A DNA stretch of 64,000 nt from Schaalia suimastitidis DSM 15538. GTDB lineage: Bacteria; Actinomycetota; Actinomycetes; Actinomycetales; Actinomycetaceae. The notes under the pieces were generated by a model. That model worked only from the letters and a program-made list of their open reading frames with translations. It did not search any database and was not told the DNA's origin. Below, in pieces: positions 19,727 to 33,281 of this stretch. Location: contig NZ_AUBF01000008.1 of assembly GCF_000429105.1 (NCBI RefSeq), positions 62,001 through 126,000 of the forward strand. Reading direction: 5' to 3'. The number at the start of each line of letters is the position of its first letter. Position 1 is the first letter of the stretch. Both the position numbers and the translations under genes were made by a program.

Positions 19727-21655
19727 CTAAAAGGTTAATCCTTTCGGATCAGCTACCCCGCAGGTGTCGCCCTTGAGGCCATACCCCAGGTACCCGACGT
19801 ATCCGAGCATAAATCCGTGGACAGATGATTCCTTCCGCAGCCTCCCATATGCGGCAAGGGTGGTGTGGATTAGCGTGAAAATATCTGCGGCGATCTTTTG
19901 GGTGCGCCCGTCGGAGGTTTCGCACAGGGTGTTGCCAGAGTCCGCCTGGTAGCGAAGCGTGTGGGCGTATTTGCCGTCGCAGCTTCCCATGATGCTTAGT
20001 TGGCAGCGCTGGTCGCCGCTATTGCTGTCGAGCCAAAAACTATGATGATCAGCGCCGTACAGGGCGCGAAATATTGTCTCGGGGTCATGTCCCAGACCAA
20101 GGTGGCGACGTTCAATGCGCCACGTGCGTGTGGGAGCAGGAATATGCGGGAGCACGGGCTGCGGCTCACAGCCAGCAGCCTCTGCCAGGGCACTTTCGTG
20201 GTCCTGACTGCATTCACTCGCCTGGGCGGTGTCATCCCCCTGGGCGCCTTCCCGGTCTTGACCGCCAATGCGCTGTTCAGAGGGAAAACCTTGCTCGCAA
20301 TGCCAAGCAAGCTGGGTACCTGCATGAGGTGGTTCACTAGCCAAACTATGAGTCGTTGGCATGGACAGAAAATTTCTGAGGATAGTGGCACCGTATTCAG
20401 TGAGGATCGACTCTGGGTGGAATTGCACGCCCCACAGCGGTCGCTCACGGTGACGAAAGGCCATTACCACGCCATCATCAGACACCGCACTCATCTGCAG
20501 CACTGATGGAAGTGAGGTCGCAGCAAGCGAGTGATAACGCACGACCTGAAAGTCCTTTGGCACACCCTCAAATAATCCCTCGCCTTGATGACGTACCGTT
20601 GAGCGGCGACCATGCATTGGCTGTGGCGCTCGTTCAATCCGCGCACCGCATATGTGGGCAATCAATTGATGTCCCAGGCACACGCCCAGTATGGGGACCG
20701 TTGCTACTTCTAATATCTGCGCGCAGATACCCACATCGGCGCCCTCTTCAGGACTGCCGGGACCGGGAGAAAAAATAATGTGGGTGTACCGGTCAAGGTC
20801 AATATCGTCCAGTTCAGTGTCATTACGCACGACGTGCGGTTCTTTTCCGGTGCATGCTGCCACTAGGTGGGCAAGGTTGTAGGTGAAAGAATCGTAATTA
20901 TCGACCAGCAGCACCCGACACCGCTCCAGCATGGGTGTAATGCCTATTTCCCGCAGCGTTGAAATAGCAACCTCTTTGGCGCGCAACGCTGTGCGAAAAT
21001 CCTCAGCAATACCAGCGTGACGAACTGGCATGGCATCCCACGCGGTAACGACGCGAATCCCATGAAGTGACGACAGGCACCACACTTCATCGGCGGAGGC
21101 AACCTCACAAGGACTTGCACCTCGGACAACAACCTGGATACCTTTTTCGCGGGCAATTTCGGTCACGAGTTCCTCGGTGACGCTGGGCATCCGACCATCG
21201 CGGGGCGCAAGGACAAGTGTGCCGTCAACCCAATGCACAATGGCACTAAAGGCACCTTCGCGTACCACCCCATCTGCACCCAGCAGCACCGCCTCGTTGG
21301 CGCCGTGGGACTGTGCCTGCTCACGCAAGCTTTTTTGGATGGGGAAATCTGGCCCCTTGAAATGTGGCAGCGTCCGAGGGTCAACGTTGGGATACGTCCA
21401 CAAGGTTGCGGTGTCGTCGAGCGCTGTTGGCGACATGAAACGCAGGTCGTAACTCACGTACCCATCGCAGGCGGTAACAAGCGGGAAAGCCCACCGGTCC
21501 TGTGCAGCGATCTCGCCAAGTATCGCCTGGTAGGTAGCGCGAAGCGTCACCTCAGGCAGTGCAGCACTTGTTGCGAGGCGGCGAATGTGTCGATCAAGGC
21601 CAGCGACTCGTCCCTGTCTTACCAGGAAGGAATCGTGAAAAACGTGCTTAGTCAC
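19727..21655 (-). CDS. pabA: PabC-PabA-PabB fusion, truncated in PabB by the mobile element
   Basis: The 642-residue frame joins three para-aminobenzoate functions. Residues 1-250 are an aminodeoxychorismate lyase (PLP fold type IV), with the Schiff-base Lys likely in HFKGPDF and the NEAVLLGADGVVREG block. Residues 255-450 are the PabA glutaminase, with nucleophile LGVCLGHQ and QFHPES. After an Asp/Glu-rich linker comes the N-terminal part of PabB, ending in MLGYVGYLGYGLKGDTCGVADP. The last residues KGLTF come from the element, followed by its stop codon. Lyase and glutaminase may still be made, but the chorismate-binding core is in the separate fragment at 12,799-13,845. The lyase-first order is unusual. 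Confidence 0.88.
   Translation of the reverse strand: MTKHVFHDSFLVRQGRVAGLDRHIRRLATSAALPEVTLRATYQAILGEIAAQDRWAFPLVTACDGYVSYDLRFMSPTALDDTATLWTYPNVDPRTLPHFKGPDFPIQKSLREQAQSHGANEAVLLGADGVVREGAFSAIVHWVDGTLVLAPRDGRMPSVTEELVTEIAREKGIQVVVRGASPCEVASADEVWCLSSLHGIRVVTAWDAMPVRHAGIAEDFRTALRAKEVAISTLREIGITPMLERCRVLLVDNYDSFTYNLAHLVAACTGKEPHVVRNDTELDDIDLDRYTHIIFSPGPGSPEEGADVGICAQILEVATVPILGVCLGHQLIAHICGARIERAPQPMHGRRSTVRHQGEGLFEGVPKDFQVVRYHSLAATSLPSVLQMSAVSDDGVVMAFRHRERPLWGVQFHPESILTEYGATILRNFLSMPTTHSLASEPPHAGTQLAWHCEQGFPSEQRIGGQDREGAQGDDTAQASECSQDHESALAEAAGCEPQPVLPHIPAPTRTWRIERRHLGLGHDPETIFRALYGADHHSFWLDSNSGDQRCQLSIMGSCDGKYAHTLRYQADSGNTLCETSDGRTQKIAADIFTLIHTTLAAYGRLRKESSVHGFMLGYVGYLGYGLKGDTCGVADPKGLTF
19735..19750. 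other. Element-host junction inside the pab fusion gene
   Basis: Element sequence GTTAATCCT ends at 19,742, TT at 19,743-19,744 is the likely crossover dinucleotide, and host sequence CGGATC follows. In the pab frame the host codons GAT CCG are followed by AA, which continues with CCCATCAGT of the other fragment. Confidence 0.75.
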
Positions 21656-21843: not shown

Positions 21844-23229
21844 CTAGGAACGAATCGCATCAATAGGCTTGACGCGAACCGCCGAAATCGCCGGAATAAT
21901 ACCGCATAGCGCACCGATCCCCACAGAGATACCCACCCCGGCAAGGGCCGCCCGCATGGGGAAGGACGGCGTTTCTTCGAGCACCACAGCAAGGATGGAT
22001 TCCAACGGAAGATACCGCAGGATTACCACAGCGAACGCAACACCTAGGACGCCCGCAACAAAGGTAGCGACCACTGACTCCATAAATACTGCGAAGAACA
22101 CACGGGAAGCAGATGCACCCATCGCTCGGCGGATACCAATTTCGCGCATCCGCTGTTTTACCGTGACTATCGCAACGTTAAGAAGACCCAGTGCACCTAG
22201 GAAAATGACGATGCCGCCAATGACCATGATGACTTTCTGCGTGGCGTCCATTTGTGCTTCGAAACCATCCGTCGTTTCACCGCCCCAAGCTTCAGCACTC
22301 CATCCCTGGCCAAGGACAGCGGCAATGGACAGCGGAAGTAAGCGCCTCGCCTCGTCCACTTGCTCTGGGCCAGCCCACACCAGCATCTCCGCGGTCGGTG
22401 ACTGGTCTGTGCGCGTATACTGCCATGCTGCATAGGACATAATGACTTGCGGAGGGTCCCAGTGCGTTTTGGATTTCACAACACCCACCACACGATACAT
22501 GCGGGGGATATCCTCATTGGTTGACAAGACAACGGGGTCGTTAATATCGGGCCGGGCAAGTGCTTTCCACATCACGTCATTAATAACGACCGGTGTGATG
22601 CGATGCTGTTCATCTCCTGGTTCCAACCAGCGCCCAGAAAGCACTTTCAGCCGATAGATCACTTGGTAAGCAGGGTCAACAGCCATCACTTCGGGATGCA
22701 CGCTTCCCGATTCGGGCAATTCAATGGGTTTCTCGCGGAAGGTACCTGTCGACTGTGCCTGTAAGACTTCTTTGAATTCCGTAGGTACTGTGACCTTCCG
22801 CGACCAGTACGGTATGGCGTAACGCTGGGCCACAGACGCCATGGCTGAACCTACCGGATCGTTAATCGACCCGGTGTCGACTGCGGTGAGTTCCCCTTCG
22901 GTCGCCGATTCAGATGTGGAAGGCATCGGGCCGCTATATGTCACGATATGACCATTCTCGGTTGCCATACCGCCCATGATCATTGGCTCTGCGTTGGTAT
23001 CGCCACTGCTTTTACTCGCCTGGATATGCAGGGTGACGGAGCGGCCCTCGTAGGACTCATTCATTTCTTTTTGTGCCTGGACCTGCAGATCACCCAAGGC
23101 TATGACGGTTGCCAATGCAGCAACGGCCGCCACCACACCCACAAGGGACAAAATGACGCGTGCCTTCTGGACTTTCACTTCGCCCCAAGCTTCCACAAGG
23201 GGACCCACTATGCGCGTAAGAAAGGTCAT
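21844..23229 (-). CDS. MacB/FtsX-like ABC transporter permease
   Basis: The 461-residue protein has the MacB design: one N-terminal helix (KARVILSLVGVVAAVAALATVIAL), a large external domain of about 280 residues, and three C-terminal helices. These include MRAMGASASRV-like IGIRRAMGASASRVFFAVFMESVVATFVAGV, the standard FtsX-family block. These permeases transmit force across the membrane rather than forming a simple channel, and often export peptides, lipids or toxins. Its ATG overlaps the ATPase stop (ATGA). With the adaptor encoded upstream the three form a tripartite-like complex suited to a Gram-positive envelope. Confidence 0.88.
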   Translation of the reverse strand: MTFLTRIVGPLVEAWGEVKVQKARVILSLVGVVAAVAALATVIALGDLQVQAQKEMNESYEGRSVTLHIQASKSSGDTNAEPMIMGGMATENGHIVTYSGPMPSTSESATEGELTAVDTGSINDPVGSAMASVAQRYAIPYWSRKVTVPTEFKEVLQAQSTGTFREKPIELPESGSVHPEVMAVDPAYQVIYRLKVLSGRWLEPGDEQHRITPVVINDVMWKALARPDINDPVVLSTNEDIPRMYRVVGVVKSKTHWDPPQVIMSYAAWQYTRTDQSPTAEMLVWAGPEQVDEARRLLPLSIAAVLGQGWSAEAWGGETTDGFEAQMDATQKVIMVIGGIVIFLGALGLLNVAIVTVKQRMREIGIRRAMGASASRVFFAVFMESVVATFVAGVLGVAFAVVILRYLPLESILAVVLEETPSFPMRAALAGVGISVGIGALCGIIPAISAVRVKPIDAIRS

Positions 23230-24032
23230 GGTGTCACCTCTGTGGCTAATTGTGTGTGCTCGCCACCGATACCTTGGCCACCTGCGTCCCGCCCCTTACC
23301 GGCACGAATCGCCTGTTCTCGCTCTGTAGGAGCCAGCGCCGATGCAGGATCATCAATAAGATGCAGACGCCCTTCGCTGAGCGACAGTACTCGGTCAGCA
23401 CGCACAGCAACATTAAGGTCGTGCGTAATCACGATGAGGGCTGCATCATTTTCGTGGGCAACCTGCTCCAATAGGGTCATCACTGAACGTCCCGTATCAG
23501 GATCAAGTGCGCCTGTGGGTTCGTCAGCGAGGATCACTCGCGGCTTGCGGACAAGGGCGCGTGCGATGGCAATACGTTGCTGCTCACCACCTGACATTTG
23601 AGTTGGGTAGGAGTCGAGGCGCGTACCCAAGCCAACGCGCTCCAGCATCGCTGCGCACCGCGAGCGCCGCTGCCAAAACATGCCGCCAGAGGCGTACAGC
23701 AGCGGCACCTCAACATTTTCCAGCGCAGTACGCGCATTGAAGATATTGAACTGTTGGAAAACAAAGCCGAATGTGTCGCCACGCATACGCGCTCGGCTGC
23801 CTTCAGATAATTTGACAGCATCACGCCCGTCAATGGTGTAGGTCCCACCGTCGGGTTTATCCAACATGCCAATGATATTGAGAAGCGTGGACTTGCCCGT
23901 ACCTGAACGACCAACGACCGACACGTGCTCCCCCGCCTCGATGCTCAGATCGATCCCCCGCAAAATGTGAAGATCTGAACCATCAGGCAGGACCACGCTG
24001 CGCGTGACGCCTTGAAGTTCTACCAGGGACAT
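23226..24032 (-). CDS. MacB/LolD-like ABC transporter ATPase
   Basis: From the ATG at 24,032 the protein has 268 residues. Walker A is GRSGTGKST, the signature is MSGGEQQRIAIARAL, and Walker B is VILADEPTGALDPDTG, all typical of the MacB/LolD branch that partners FtsX-like permeases. A C-terminal tail of about 45 residues, rich in Gly and Glu, lies beyond the domain. It should drive the adjacent permease. The upstream extension to 24,092 lies within the adaptor gene and is not needed. It is one base from the adaptor stop and overlaps the permease start, so the three genes are one operon. Confidence 0.88.
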   Translation of the reverse strand: MSLVELQGVTRSVVLPDGSDLHILRGIDLSIEAGEHVSVVGRSGTGKSTLLNIIGMLDKPDGGTYTIDGRDAVKLSEGSRARMRGDTFGFVFQQFNIFNARTALENVEVPLLYASGGMFWQRRSRCAAMLERVGLGTRLDSYPTQMSGGEQQRIAIARALVRKPRVILADEPTGALDPDTGRSVMTLLEQVAHENDAALIVITHDLNVAVRADRVLSLSEGRLHLIDDPASALAPTEREQAIRAGKGRDAGGQGIGGEHTQLATEVTP

Positions 24033-24033
24033 G

Positions 24034-25107
24034 TCACGCACCCTCACCCGATGTGTCTTCGGTAAGAGCCTCTTTACCCTCAGGCACCACACCCATATCC
24101 TGGTCCATCATTTGCTGAAGCTGCTCCTGCTTACGGTTGGGGATGAACTCAAGGACCTCCTGGGTTTCTTCCAGACCTTCTTTGATTTCAACACGTTTTC
24201 CATCAGTCAACCCAAGTTTGACTGACACTTTGTCGGGCGTACCGGTTTGCGCGTTCGGAATATAAACGAAACCTGTTTCAAATCGGCCTTCCACAGCACT
24301 TATTGGCAGCGTCATGACACCTTGCACGGAACCTGCGATAAGGTCCATCTGTACTTGAAGGCCAGGGAAAACCTGCTGCTCGGCTGGCACAGCACATACG
24401 GCGCGTATACCGGATGTGTTGGAGCCTTCGGTACTGCCTGAGGTTTGGGGAGTTTGGGTTGCTTTAGATGTTTCCACACGTAGTGACGTGCATTCAAAGG
24501 GGGCCGGGCCGTCTTTAATGGTGACTGTCGCGGTTTCTGGCAGGTTTTGGATTCGATACATCTGCTCCGGGCTAAGGCTCGCCACCGCTGAGTAATTGGG
24601 TGGTTGTATGCGTGCCACCACGTCCCCGATATTGAAGTGTTGACCTTTGAGCGCAGAAATTGACACCGTTCCCGAAGTTGGGGAGCTAAAAGTCTCGTAT
24701 TTATACCATGGCCTGCCTGGAATAATTTCTACATTTCCTTCTGCATCGGTGCGCTGAGTGTCTTGCCCAGGCATTTCCTTTCGGACCTCAACAAGTGGGG
24801 CGCCTGCTTCCACCCAAGCTCCGTCCGCAACATGCACCACCGTTACCTCGCCGTCAAGGGTGGCCTTCGTATCAACGGTGGGTACGGCCTCGATCGTTCC
24901 TTGTATTTTCACCGTATTCGTAATATCGCCACGCTCAGGCATTACAGTGATTTCACCATAGGTCGCTGAAGGATCCACCACTACCGTGTCCTCGGCTTTA
25001 ATACTGGGGAAGAAAGCAAATTTCACAAAGGCCGCGGCTATAACAAGCCAGCACAACGTTTTCACAATATTGAAAACCATGGCGGCTTTGCCTTGATGGG
25101 TTGACAT
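24034..25107 (-). CDS. MacA/HlyD-like membrane fusion (adaptor) protein
   Basis: The ATG at 25,107 follows GGAGGATCCCA; an ATG five codons earlier lacks such a site. The 357-residue protein has one N-terminal helix (IVKTLCWLVIAAAFVKFAFF), then a long extracytoplasmic region. It contains a lipoyl/barrel-sandwich half-motif VTVVHVADGAWVEAGAPLVEV and a second half with SGTVSISALKGQHFNIGDVVARI. The C-terminal tail is Gln/Glu/Met-rich. It probably links the permease to an external substrate. It is the first gene of the operon and its promoter region contains three 11-base direct repeats. Confidence 0.82.
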   Translation of the reverse strand: MSTHQGKAAMVFNIVKTLCWLVIAAAFVKFAFFPSIKAEDTVVVDPSATYGEITVMPERGDITNTVKIQGTIEAVPTVDTKATLDGEVTVVHVADGAWVEAGAPLVEVRKEMPGQDTQRTDAEGNVEIIPGRPWYKYETFSSPTSGTVSISALKGQHFNIGDVVARIQPPNYSAVASLSPEQMYRIQNLPETATVTIKDGPAPFECTSLRVETSKATQTPQTSGSTEGSNTSGIRAVCAVPAEQQVFPGLQVQMDLIAGSVQGVMTLPISAVEGRFETGFVYIPNAQTGTPDKVSVKLGLTDGKRVEIKEGLEETQEVLEFIPNRKQEQLQQMMDQDMGVVPEGKEALTEDTSGEGA

Positions 25108-25199
25108 TGGGATCCTCCTCAACGGCGAGTGATAATCGGACGCACTGCCGATCAGGTTACCGGTTACTTTCCCTGGTTCACTACTATTTTTGAAGTTAC

Positions 25200-25235
25200 T
25201 TAGGGAAAGTTCAGGGTATTCTCAGGGTGCCCTGA
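25200..25235. promoter_or_regulatory. Three 11-base direct repeats, candidate response-regulator site
   Basis: TTAGGGAAAGT (25,200-25,210), TCAGGGTATTC (25,211-25,221) and TCAGGGTGCCC (25,222-25,232) follow one another without gaps. Repeats with a helical-turn period of 11 bases are typical of OmpR-type response-regulator sites. They lie in the divergent region between the MacAB-like operon and the GDPD gene. The third repeat also forms the palindrome TCAGGGTGCCCTGA. Confidence 0.5.
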
Positions 25236-25304: not shown

Positions 25305-27143
25305 ATGCCGCCCAAATCTGACGTACAGCACGAACCGCTCCCTGTCGCTATCCCGTGGCTTATTAGAGGCGGCACCCCATCGGATTTATGGCTCTACATC
25401 CGATACCATCTGTTGTCCAAACTGCTTTTGTCGCTCGTGGTCTTTCCGTTATTTCGCTTTCTTGCCCACGGTCTGATCCTCCTGTCAGGACGCACATCAA
25501 TCAGTTCAGGGGACTTCAAAGGCTTCCTTTTTAGCCCCTATGGCTTCATCATCATTGTGCTGAGTCTTTTTCTCCTCACAGTAATGCTGGTCACCGACAT
25601 TGTTGCCTTTGTCATTGTCGAAATGCGTCGCATGTGCGGTGAAGCTCTCCCCAGTGCCCGCACGCTGCTGTGGATGGCACTACGCCACGTGCCGCGCTTC
25701 TTCCACCCTGGCACCTTGGTTTTCGTACTTGTACCCAGCCTTTTTGTTCCGCTGGCCGGTTTTGGTCCCTCCCTCGCAGGCTTGTCATGGCTGAAGATAC
25801 CGGCATTCGTCCAGCACGTCATCTTCGACAATACGTGGTATAGCCTCGCATACGGATTTGTCGTTCTTGTGTGTGTTGTGGTGACCTTTTTCCTACTGCA
25901 AACGGTGCCCGCCATGTTGGTCTTAGACCTCAATCCGTTGCAGGCCATGCGCATGTCGGCGCGTTTCACGAGGCGTCACTGGCGCCACCAACTTCGCTCT
26001 GTACTGCGCAGCTTCCTCTCACTTGCTGTCAGTGTCATCTGCGTATTTGGACCTGTTGCACTGTTAACCGTTATAGGTACCCAGTGGGCGTCGTCATCCC
26101 TGTTTGCTTCACGTATGTCCGCTATTGCGGTCACTTTGTCAGCCTCAGCTGCGATGGCTGTCATTATTTTCCTGTCGGCTCCGTTACGACTGCGCGGCTC
26201 TACACGCTATTTTGCTCAGAGCGAGGGGGGCCAGGAGTTTACGCGGCGTGATATTGCCCTTGTTCGTCGTGAAGATCGCAAAGCGTGGCCACGCTTAATT
26301 GGTGCCTTCACCTCAGGCATCGTGGCGTTGATTGGCCTATCTGCTTTTGGCGCTTATGCCTTTGATGTGCTATTCCCCCACTCCGGCCCTATTGCGGTCG
26401 TTGCTCACCGAGGCGGGGGGAACCTTGATGCAGAAAACTCCGTTGAGGGCGTGGTTGCTGCCGCTAATGCTGGTGCGGCGTGGACTGAAATTGATGTGCA
26501 ACGAACCGCGGACGGGTACTACATCGTCAACCACGACGAGACCTTCCAGCGCCTCGCAGGCGACTCACGCCGCGCCTCGAAGATGACTCTTGAGCAAATC
26601 CGCGCATTGCAGGTGAAAAATACTTTCACTGCTGGTGCCCCGTCGCGCCATATCGCCACTTTGGATGAGGTTTTCGAAGCCGCCCGTGGACGCATTGGTC
26701 TCTATATTGAGCTGAAGGGTGCCACCGCGGATAAGCAGATGGTGGACGATGTGGCCCAGATGATCCGCCGCAACCACATGGAATCCCAGGCGGTGATCCT
26801 CAGCCTCGATCTTGACCTCATTAAATATTCTGAGGCGCACTACCCGCAGCTACTATCGGGGTATCTGTTCTACTTTGCGTTAGGCGATATTACAGCGATA
26901 CCCGCTGACTACCTCATTATGGAAGAAGGATTAGCGTCTGAGGATCGCATTTTCCAGGTCCAGTCAGCGGGGAAACGTGCTGTGGTGTGGACGGTGAATT
27001 CGGCTGAGTCGATTACTCGTTTTTCTGCCTCAAGTGTTGATGGGATTATCACCGACAAGCCTGTTGAGGTTTTGCAGGCACTCACACAAGCCAAACTTCG
27101 TTCGGATTTTGAACGTGTAGTTGACGCACTGATGACTTTCTAA
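25305..27143 (+). CDS. Membrane-anchored glycerophosphodiester phosphodiesterase
   Basis: This 612-residue protein has an N-terminal membrane region of about 350 residues with six or more helices (the GPDPase_memb type). A GDPD catalytic domain follows, starting AVVAHRGGGNLDAENSVEGVVAAANAGA. The catalytic His and Arg (HRG), metal ligands in WTEIDVQRTADGYYIVNHDETFQR and the closing VVWTVNSAESITRF are present. The enzyme would hydrolyse glycerophosphodiesters, from lipid or teichoic acid turnover, to glycerol-3-phosphate and an alcohol at the cell surface. The ATG follows GAAGGAA. It is monocistronic and ends before a large hairpin shared with the convergent TM2 gene. Confidence 0.88.
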   Translation: MPPKSDVQHEPLPVAIPWLIRGGTPSDLWLYIRYHLLSKLLLSLVVFPLFRFLAHGLILLSGRTSISSGDFKGFLFSPYGFIIIVLSLFLLTVMLVTDIVAFVIVEMRRMCGEALPSARTLLWMALRHVPRFFHPGTLVFVLVPSLFVPLAGFGPSLAGLSWLKIPAFVQHVIFDNTWYSLAYGFVVLVCVVVTFFLLQTVPAMLVLDLNPLQAMRMSARFTRRHWRHQLRSVLRSFLSLAVSVICVFGPVALLTVIGTQWASSSLFASRMSAIAVTLSASAAMAVIIFLSAPLRLRGSTRYFAQSEGGQEFTRRDIALVRREDRKAWPRLIGAFTSGIVALIGLSAFGAYAFDVLFPHSGPIAVVAHRGGGNLDAENSVEGVVAAANAGAAWTEIDVQRTADGYYIVNHDETFQRLAGDSRRASKMTLEQIRALQVKNTFTAGAPSRHIATLDEVFEAARGRIGLYIELKGATADKQMVDDVAQMIRRNHMESQAVILSLDLDLIKYSEAHYPQLLSGYLFYFALGDITAIPADYLIMEEGLASEDRIFQVQSAGKRAVVWTVNSAESITRFSASSVDGIITDKPVEVLQALTQAKLRSDFERVVDALMTF

Positions 27144-30423: not shown

Positions 30424-31269
30424 CTATGCGCTGCGGTATTCAAAGTGCGTAAAACCAAGGGTTTCGATCTGTTCAGCCCAGCGCTGGACGAGGCCGTCCC
30501 ACCCTTTCGCTGTCGCCACAAAGTCCGCTGGCGCCCCCATGGCCCGTGCCTGTTGGAGGGCAAAATAACCGACACCTGCCTGCCGCAGCCGCCGAGCTAC
30601 CTCAAGCACATCGCGTGGGCCATCAGGGTAAACGGTCAGACGTACTTCGTAGGCGGTATCCGGGCATCCCAAAAGGACGTCAAGGGACTCCCAGGCTTTT
30701 TCTCCTGCATGGGCACGGCCAGCGACCTGCTCGTAGGATGACCCAGGCAGGGCCTTAATATCGAGGCCAACCCAGTCAATGAGGCCTTGGGCCAGCAGTG
30801 TCTTCAGGCGCGTGGGGTAGGGACCGGCAGTGTGGAGCCCCACCTGGTAACCCAGGTCTTTCACGCGGCGCATCGCAGCTCCCAAGCTGATTTGCCGCGT
30901 CGCTTCACCACCTGAGAAGACGACGCCGTCAAGGAGGCCATGGCGGCGCTTTAGCAACTGTTCGACGCGTGACCAAGCAATAACGCCTGGGATACGCGGG
31001 TCGATGATAGCGACGTTATGACAGTACGGGCACTGCCACGGGCATCCTTGACAAAAGACTGTGGCGACGAGTTTTCCTGGCCAGTCCACGGCCGACATGG
31101 GGCTAAGTCCAGCGATTTGCAGGTCATCAGCACTGTCGGCACGTGGACGCACCAAGGTAGGCGGTGCCACAGCCTGCGGGGCAGACAGCTGCACATCTAT
31201 CGGCACGGCACCTGGGCTGGGCATAGGGCAGGCAGCGGACCTACCGTTCCCGGCCTCGTTAATCGTCAC
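30424..31269 (-). CDS. nrdG: Anaerobic ribonucleotide reductase activating protein, radical SAM
   Basis: The 281-residue protein carries the radical SAM cluster motif CPWQCPYC (Cys 76, 80 and 83) within VFCQGCPWQCPYCHN, preceded by GLSPMSAVDWPGKL, as in the NrdG2 type. It also has DGVVFSGGEATRQ, the SAM-binding GGE motif. It makes the glycyl radical in NrdD using S-adenosylmethionine. The first 45 or so residues are not conserved, so translation may begin later. Its GTG overlaps the nrdD stop (GTGA), and the pair is transcribed together behind NrdR boxes. Confidence 0.9.
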   Translation of the reverse strand: MTINEAGNGRSAACPMPSPGAVPIDVQLSAPQAVAPPTLVRPRADSADDLQIAGLSPMSAVDWPGKLVATVFCQGCPWQCPYCHNVAIIDPRIPGVIAWSRVEQLLKRRHGLLDGVVFSGGEATRQISLGAAMRRVKDLGYQVGLHTAGPYPTRLKTLLAQGLIDWVGLDIKALPGSSYEQVAGRAHAGEKAWESLDVLLGCPDTAYEVRLTVYPDGPRDVLEVARRLRQAGVGYFALQQARAMGAPADFVATAKGWDGLVQRWAEQIETLGFTHFEYRSA

Positions 31270-33152
31270 CGCTGCCCAACCGGTGGGAATGCGCTGACAA
31301 GTTCACCGTGCTGCTCGGCCGCCTCTTCCGAAAACATGCGCCGCTGAGCGTATTCGCCTTTCTTGCCCACGTTAAAGGACTGTACGGGACGGAAGTACCC
31401 CATGACGCGTGTCCACACTTCACATTGAACTGCTTCACGGTCAGGGTGAGCCTGGGCGCATTTTTCGCAGGTGAGATGCTCACCTGATAGGTAGCCGTGT
31501 ACTGGGCAGATGCTGAAGGTTGGAGTGATCGTAATGTAGGGGACTTTAAAGGCCGTGAGGGAGCGACGCACCATTTCTTTACATGCCTGCCCGTTACTCA
31601 TTGCCTGCCCCATATACAGGTGCAGGACAGTCCCCCCGGTGTACTTGCCTTGGAGGACTTCCTGACGTTCCAACGCTTCGAAAGGATCGTCAGTAAAGCC
31701 CACCGGAAGCTGTGAGGAATTCGTGTAATAGGGTTGCTCGGCGCTGCCCGCCTGGAGGATGTTAGGGAAGGCTTTGCGGTCTTCTTTTGCGAAACGATAG
31801 GTGGTGCCTTCGGCAGGTGTGGCTTCCAGGTTATACATATGACCCGTCGCTTCTTGAAGAGAGACCATACGTTCACGGATATGATCAAGGAGGTCAGCAA
31901 CCATATGAAAACCAGCATCATCAGTGATGTCGTAGGCATCGCCAGTGAAGTTACGAACCATTTCATTCATGCCGTTAACACCAATGGTGGAGAAATGATT
32001 GTCAAGGCTGCCGAGGTAACGGTGGCTGTAGGGAAAAAGACCGGAGTCCATGTGGTGTTGTATCACCGCGCGTTTTGCTTCAAGGGTGGTGCTGGCGATG
32101 TCGATGAGACGGTCGGTGGCCGCATACAGTCCGTCAATGTCGCCTGCATGAAGGTACCCTAGGCGCGCCATATTGAGGGTAACCACACCGATGGAGCCGG
32201 TTAATTCTGCCGACCCAAAGAGACCGTTGCCGCGTTTGAGTAACTCACGCAGGTCCAGCTGTAGACGGCAGCACATGGAGCGGATCATATGCGGGTCAAG
32301 GTCGGAGTTAATGAAGTTTTGGAAGTACGGCAGGCCGTATTTCGCGGTCATTTCAAAGAGACGCTCAGCATTGGGTGTATCCCAATCAAAATCAGGCGTG
32401 ATGTTGTACGTGGGGATAGGGAAGGTGAAGACGCGACCATCGGCGTCACCTTGCTGCATGACGTCGATAAAGGCGCGGTTGATCATATCCATTTCGGCTT
32501 GAAGTTCACCATAGGTAAAGTCAACGACGTCACCGCCAATGAAAGGGTATTCGTCGACGAGGTCGTCAGGGCACGTCCAGTCGAAGGTAAGATTCGTGAA
32601 AGGGCATTGGCTGCCCCAGCGGCTTGGCACGTTGAGGTTATATACCAGTTCTTGCATACATTGGACGACCTCGTCGTATTCCATATTGTCGAGGCGAACG
32701 AAGGGTGCCATATAGGTGTCGAATGAACTGAATGCTTGTGCTCCTGCCCATTCGTTCTGAAGGGTGCCAAGGAAGTTGACGATTTGTCCGCAGGCAGAGG
32801 AGAAGTGTTTGGGTGGGGCCGAGGCGATGGCTCCTGATACGCCATTGAAGCCTTCTTGGAGGAGCCTCTTCAGTGACCAGCCAGCACAGTATCCGGCGAA
32901 CATGTCGAGGTCATGGATGTGGATGTCTCCGCTGCGGTGAGCCGCTCCGGCTTCGGGGGTGTAAATACGTTCGAGCCAGTAATTGGCCACCATTTTTCCG
33001 GCGGCGTTGAGGATCATGCCGCCCAGAGAGTAGCCCTGGTTCGCGTTGGCGTTGACGCGCCAGTCAGATCGGCTGAGGTATTCCTCAATTGTGCCAATGG
33101 CGTCCACGTCGTAGCGTGTGGGGGTGGCGGTGGTCTGGGCGCGCTCGTTCAT
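31266..33152 (-). CDS. nrdD: Anaerobic ribonucleoside-triphosphate reductase, class III
   Basis: I chose ATG 33,152 because GCGAAGG precedes it; the frame is open to ATG 33,230, whose added 26 residues are Pro/Ser-rich. The 628-residue protein has HRSGDIHIHDLDMFAGYCAGWSL, the Zn site CPVHGYLSGEHLTCEKC and the glycyl radical region TRVMGYFRPVQSFNVGKKGEYAQR. It reduces ribonucleoside triphosphates to deoxy forms without oxygen. No ATP-cone is visible at the N-terminus, so the usual dATP overall-activity control appears absent. Paired NrdR sites lie 130-176 bases upstream. Confidence 0.93.
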   Translation of the reverse strand: MNERAQTTATPTRYDVDAIGTIEEYLSRSDWRVNANANQGYSLGGMILNAAGKMVANYWLERIYTPEAGAAHRSGDIHIHDLDMFAGYCAGWSLKRLLQEGFNGVSGAIASAPPKHFSSACGQIVNFLGTLQNEWAGAQAFSSFDTYMAPFVRLDNMEYDEVVQCMQELVYNLNVPSRWGSQCPFTNLTFDWTCPDDLVDEYPFIGGDVVDFTYGELQAEMDMINRAFIDVMQQGDADGRVFTFPIPTYNITPDFDWDTPNAERLFEMTAKYGLPYFQNFINSDLDPHMIRSMCCRLQLDLRELLKRGNGLFGSAELTGSIGVVTLNMARLGYLHAGDIDGLYAATDRLIDIASTTLEAKRAVIQHHMDSGLFPYSHRYLGSLDNHFSTIGVNGMNEMVRNFTGDAYDITDDAGFHMVADLLDHIRERMVSLQEATGHMYNLEATPAEGTTYRFAKEDRKAFPNILQAGSAEQPYYTNSSQLPVGFTDDPFEALERQEVLQGKYTGGTVLHLYMGQAMSNGQACKEMVRRSLTAFKVPYITITPTFSICPVHGYLSGEHLTCEKCAQAHPDREAVQCEVWTRVMGYFRPVQSFNVGKKGEYAQRRMFSEEAAEQHGELVSAFPPVGQR

Positions 33153-33281
33153 GGCTACCTTCGCTGGTCGTTCCGAATACACGGGTGATGGGCCGTGTTG
33201 TGGGCTGTGTGGCGACGAAGCGACAGGCATTTACGCTTGGCATTGGCCTTGATGGCATCATCGCATTATTTGACGCTTCAA

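Follow-up and report, generated by a model that had tools for sequence, protein, structure and literature searches.

The DNA between positions 25200 and 25235 of the window (the whole stretch of 64,000 nucleotides analyzed here) is probably an operator at which the LuxR/NarL-type regulator of an EsrISR-like envelope-stress system would activate a MacAB-like exporter. The array of repeats is present and is conserved upstream of macA at the level of the genus; its tandem pair also occurs at the promoter of the regulator across the class.

On the plus strand, positions 25200-25227 read TTAGGGAAAGTTCAGGGTATTCTCAGGG and contain three hexamers in steps of exactly 11 bases, TTAGGG-N5-TCAGGG-N5-TCAGGG, at the place and with the spacing described in an earlier note on this DNA. 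That note spoke of three contiguous 11-base direct repeats, a wording that is too strong because the 5-base linkers differ and only the hexamers are repeated. Its interval, drawn to 25235, took in a fourth half-site that it did not mention; this half-site is inverted (TCAGGG-TG-CCCTGA), adjoins the triple after 2 bases and ends at 25235. When read on the minus strand, which is that of macA, the array becomes TCAGGG-CA-CCCTGA-N5-CCCTGA-N5-CCCTAA, that is, one inverted and three tandem half-sites.

The array is flanked by a MacAB-like operon and by a divergent gene for a GDPD membrane protein, in agreement with the previous description of the region (Table 1). The ATG of macA occupies 25105-25107, is preceded by GAGGAGG and lies 92 bp from the array, while the GDPD gene starts 69 bp from it. 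We use only the name "MacAB-like" because the curated MacA and MacB models were not reached: the adaptor scored 24.9 bits against a cut-off of 342 for MacA, and the ATPase (for which MacB is the best NCBIfam model) and the permease scored 225.9 and 60.8 bits, respectively, against 966 for MacB. The curated MacB model represents a fused ATPase and permease, and here the two are encoded by separate genes. Elsewhere in the window, judging from translations only, a minus-strand ORF at 19727-21655 resembles an aminotransferase/glutamine amidotransferase/chorismate-enzyme fusion, and two minus-strand ORFs at 30424-33230 resemble an anaerobic ribonucleotide reductase and its activating enzyme.

Table 1. 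Location of the putative operator array and of neighboring features in the window.
Feature	Position	Strand	Basis
Putative operator array	25200..25235	.	Sequence, pattern statistics, conservation upstream of macA
Proposed -10 element TAACCT	25154..25159	-	46 bp from start of last half-site
MacA-like HlyD-type adaptor	24034..25107	-	HlyD_3 22.1 bits, just below cut-off of 22.2
ABC ATPase, MacB/LolD kind	23226..24032	-	ABC_tran 115.7 bits
MacB-like permease (MacB_PCD + FtsX)	21844..23229	-	FtsX 58.9 and MacB_PCD 53.8 bits, above cut-off
Divergent membrane GDPD protein	25305..27143	+	GDPD 96.6 and GPDPase_memb 75.1 bits

If up to 3 mismatches are allowed, 0.12 copies of the triple are expected per window; the copy observed has none, and the second match of this search overlaps the same site out of register, with 3 mismatches. 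When the inverted half-site was added to the triple, again with up to 3 mismatches, matches were found in 0 of 100 shuffles. In the 2.29-Mb genome the exact triple has a single occurrence, and the reversed-pattern control has none. The earlier note had proposed a search for further genomic copies of the 11-base TCAGGG repeats. TYAGGG-N(0-20)-TYAGGG gave 28 pairs in the genome, of which 7 have the N5 spacing and 21 are spread over the remaining 20 spacings together. Two of these N5 pairs belong to the 25200-25227 array itself, which leaves 6 independent sites; the Poisson probability of the excess is ~1e-4, or 8e-4 when the 6 sites are counted.

Orthologues of the adaptor were found in 32 of 35 genomes of the genus, and upstream sequence was available for 31 of them. 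The exception, G014, has an exact pair ~200 bp before its macA match according to the genus-wide list of pairs. A pair of CCCTGA half-sites spaced by exactly 11 bp is present on the macA strand in 24 of the 31 regions (21 of them exact), while the opposite strand of the same regions has the pair in none. At spacings from 6 to 20 bp other than 11, no single spacing occurs in more than 2 regions. The repeats are thus conserved in orthologous promoters, the point on which the earlier note had let its interpretation stand or fall. The seven regions without the pair are those of G001, G003, G007, G008, G018, G019 and G031, the last of which was read over 211 bp only. Of the 24 promoters with the pair, 15 have a TANNNT element at a distance of 45 or 46 bp from where the last half-site starts, many of these 15 coming from near relatives.

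It is scarcely credible that the repeats arose by chance, or are repeats without a regulatory role. Single N5 pairs are indeed numerous in the 35 same-genus genomes (166, against 100 matches of the reversed pattern), so that the occurrence of such a pair somewhere in a genome says little and many of them are background; however, the triple is unique in its genome, and spacing, strand and place are all fixed upstream of macA in 24 of 31 regions. It is the conserved position, not the mere occurrence of an N5 pair, that carries weight. In the family outside the genus, the pair precedes only 2 of 51 macA homologues (67 genomes there have a macA match; 51 were read, and 16 were dropped because the match was partial, weak, broken or at a contig edge). 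Because of this difference between the genus and the rest of the family, we regard macAB as the predicted target at the genus level, with control apparently acquired at about that level.

The earlier note had assigned the site to two divergent envelope genes, and this part of its account was not supported. The array ends 69 bp before the GDPD start and its TCAGGG faces that gene, as it does at yccF and two ABC systems, which could suggest that it mainly serves GDPD. This is very unlikely, since GDPD adjoins macA in only 1 of 30 genus loci (1.5-kb flanks), that of the window itself, and the array goes with macA. Dual control of macA and GDPD by the array is possible.

As the earlier note had stated, the window has no two-component genes: none of the 13 receiver-domain matches in the genome (12 above cut-off) falls within it, and the regulator lies outside. 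The best reading of the array is still that of a response-regulator site, and the previous interpretation as a whole is partly supported. Tandem binding by OmpR/PhoB-type regulators typically yields 11-bp direct repeats, and half-sites placed head to tail one helical turn apart, together with 7 OmpR-type effector domains in the genome, one of them ~4 kb outside the window (C4:57409), would fit an operator of this type. However, the pair is present at 0 of the 7 OmpR-type loci of the own genome (3.2 kb each, both strands), and the regulator is therefore probably not of the OmpR type; by contrast, the promoter of a LuxR-type regulator carries the pair across the class. We consider an OmpR/PhoB-type operator unlikely.

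The LuxR/NarL-type candidate came from one of the six sites in the own genome, which is located on another contig between a gene for a PspC-domain protein and an operon encoding a PspC-kinase and the regulator. The kinase has a PspC domain at residues 43-89 (47.4 bits) and a HATPase_c domain (28 bits), both above cut-off. The regulator gene follows 8 bp after the kinase gene, and its product contains Response_reg (64.2 bits) and GerE (69.8 bits) domains; its closest solved relative is VraR (7ve6, E 4.9e-35). The divergent membrane protein, encoded on the opposite strand, matches PspC with 69.5 bits. Among the named records in the collection, the relatives nearest to the kinase come from Actinomyces and Schaalia species, in a list that may omit records very near the window's genome; the host therefore likely belongs to this group of the Actinomycetaceae.

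At the kinase promoter the pair is present in all 30 same-genus loci, 27 of them exact and 3 with one mismatch (11/12 or better). It is also found at 63 of 80 named loci, which were picked by protein patterns with the promoter disregarded (a set in which C. glutamicum is not represented by a named record), and at 26 of 40 promoters in a sample over 25 families, 17 of which were positive. Spacings of 12 and 13 bp are raised as well, to 16 and 12 of the 80 named promoters and 11 and 5 of the 40 sampled ones, and perhaps represent further half-site copies out of register. The regulator gene follows the kinase in 79 of the 80 loci, with 58-89% identity to the regulator of the own genome and a nearly constant helix-turn-helix region. 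From 57 kinase-promoter sites, the closest seven loci being left out, we derived the consensus AT[CG][GA]GGG-N4-CCCTGA-N5-CCCTGA, followed at 11 bp by a weaker CCCYG. Because the same repeats precede the regulator's own genes class-wide, the array is very probably the docking site of this regulator.

A matrix built from the full kinase-promoter array did not single out the window site, which ranks second with 0.71, after a match of 4.61, and falls below the simulated maxima (mean 5.62). The low score is due to the inverted half-site, which in the window is shifted by two bases (N2 vs N4). The element common to the window and the kinase promoters is the tandem pair only. A strong match to the kinase is found in 23 of the 24 genus genomes bearing the macA pair, and 5 of the 7 without the pair also possess it. 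G012 has the macA pair, but neither a kinase nor a regulator exceeding 35% identity was detected in it. Among the family genomes that do not belong to the genus, the macA pair occurs in 1 of 32 genomes with the kinase and 1 of 19 without it (Fisher P = 1), showing no association among these 51 homologues. G045, whose macA has an exact pair and which was counted as lacking the kinase in this comparison, contains a relative of the regulator (72-76% identity) split over two frames at G045:C17:89754-90234.

EsrISR is a three-component envelope-stress system of Corynebacterium glutamicum, reportedly described by Kleine et al. in 2017. By analogy with it, we infer that the regulator binds the array and that the effect is activation under a similar stimulus. 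In such a scheme the PspC-fused membrane kinase, restrained by the second PspC protein, would phosphorylate the regulator under envelope stress. The phosphorylated regulator would then bind the CCCTGA half-sites, one per helical turn (11 bp), upstream of the -10 element ~46 bp away, and the bound regulator would activate the MacAB-like exporter operon. In C. glutamicum, bacitracin and vancomycin elicit a response of EsrISR (PMC6975037); the system is also described there as being induced by lipid II-cycle antibiotics and inhibited by the EsrI protein (PMC6975037, PMC7283102). EsrISR has further been reported as the repressor of one C. glutamicum operon (PMC9960051); for this reason activation is not certain, and repression of the MacAB-like operon would be possible.

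The two systems have in common a PspC-fused kinase (PMC9239133 for that of EsrISR), a response regulator and a divergently encoded second PspC protein. The regulon of EsrISR comprises its own locus and ABC transporters (PMC7283102); here the shared array is found at both kinds of promoter, which may be controlled likewise. Unlike in EsrISR, the predicted target here is a MacAB-like operon in another genus; the comparison covers protein domains, gene layout and targets. The same gene layout is found in the PspA-free Lia-like systems of Actinobacteria, in which a PspC-kinase and a REC-HTH regulator share their promoter region with an opposite PspC gene; the part of that source available to us gives no operator or regulon (PMC11237479). 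Our literature searches with TCAGGG, CCCTGA and EsrISR, in a collection that does not cover the primary EsrISR and MacRS papers, returned no motif for the system.

LiaSR/VraSR of Firmicutes also employ a NarL-family regulator in envelope stress. While the regulator family is common to these systems and the one considered here, the kinase of the latter is PspC-fused and did not reach the Streptococcus LiaS model (23.9 bits against a cut-off of 450). MacS was rejected as an identity for the kinase (77.5 bits against a cut-off of 300). The published consensus for MacRS is said to be an inverted repeat, not CCCTGA. Like the system considered here, MacRS of Streptomyces is an actinobacterial kinase/regulator pair, which controls membrane-protein genes according to a title cited in PMC12623338.

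Taken at the level of sequence, the array is a real, conserved predicted operator belonging to a known kind of stress system, and the operator motif itself may be new. We also put forward, tentatively and with some doubt, the existence of a hitherto unpublished operator code that the PspC-kinase stress systems of actinobacteria share across the class. According to this proposal, a NarL-type regulator would assemble head to tail on successive CCCTGA half-sites, each one turn of the helix from the next, with one inverted half-site as a cap, and individual genera would recruit exporters of their own, here the MacAB-like operon, by gaining a tandem array. Such a motif would allow PspC-kinase envelope-stress regulons to be predicted from sequence in many actinobacteria, and would tie an uncharacterized MacAB-like exporter to the envelope-stress response. 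Tandem direct repeats would be an uncommon binding geometry for a NarL-type regulator, one for which a short DNA fragment would suffice as a test.

The 11-bp pair also precedes yccF (L120:6977-7425), an ABC-FtsX pair (L119:7403-8182) and another ABC ATPase gene (L118:7384-8317) in the own genome, and because of this a small envelope regulon is likely. A further 30 loci were selected because they contain arrays or pairs, so that counts among them are not frequencies. Nine of these loci, including that of the own genome, have the array before yccF, 5 before the gene for a 970-residue ABC protein, 4 before macA and 2, again including the own one, before an ABC-FtsX pair; several others have no recognized target. 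TCAGGG points toward yccF and toward both of these ABC systems, and CCCTGA points toward macA, the kinase gene and another ABC gene of the own genome. An additional 11-bp pair at L119:10751-10767, with no promoter evident alongside, may be background. At G000:C8:108709-108738, copies of TCAGGGCA follow one another head to tail every 8 bp; the spacing differs, and this repeat is apparently not related to the array.
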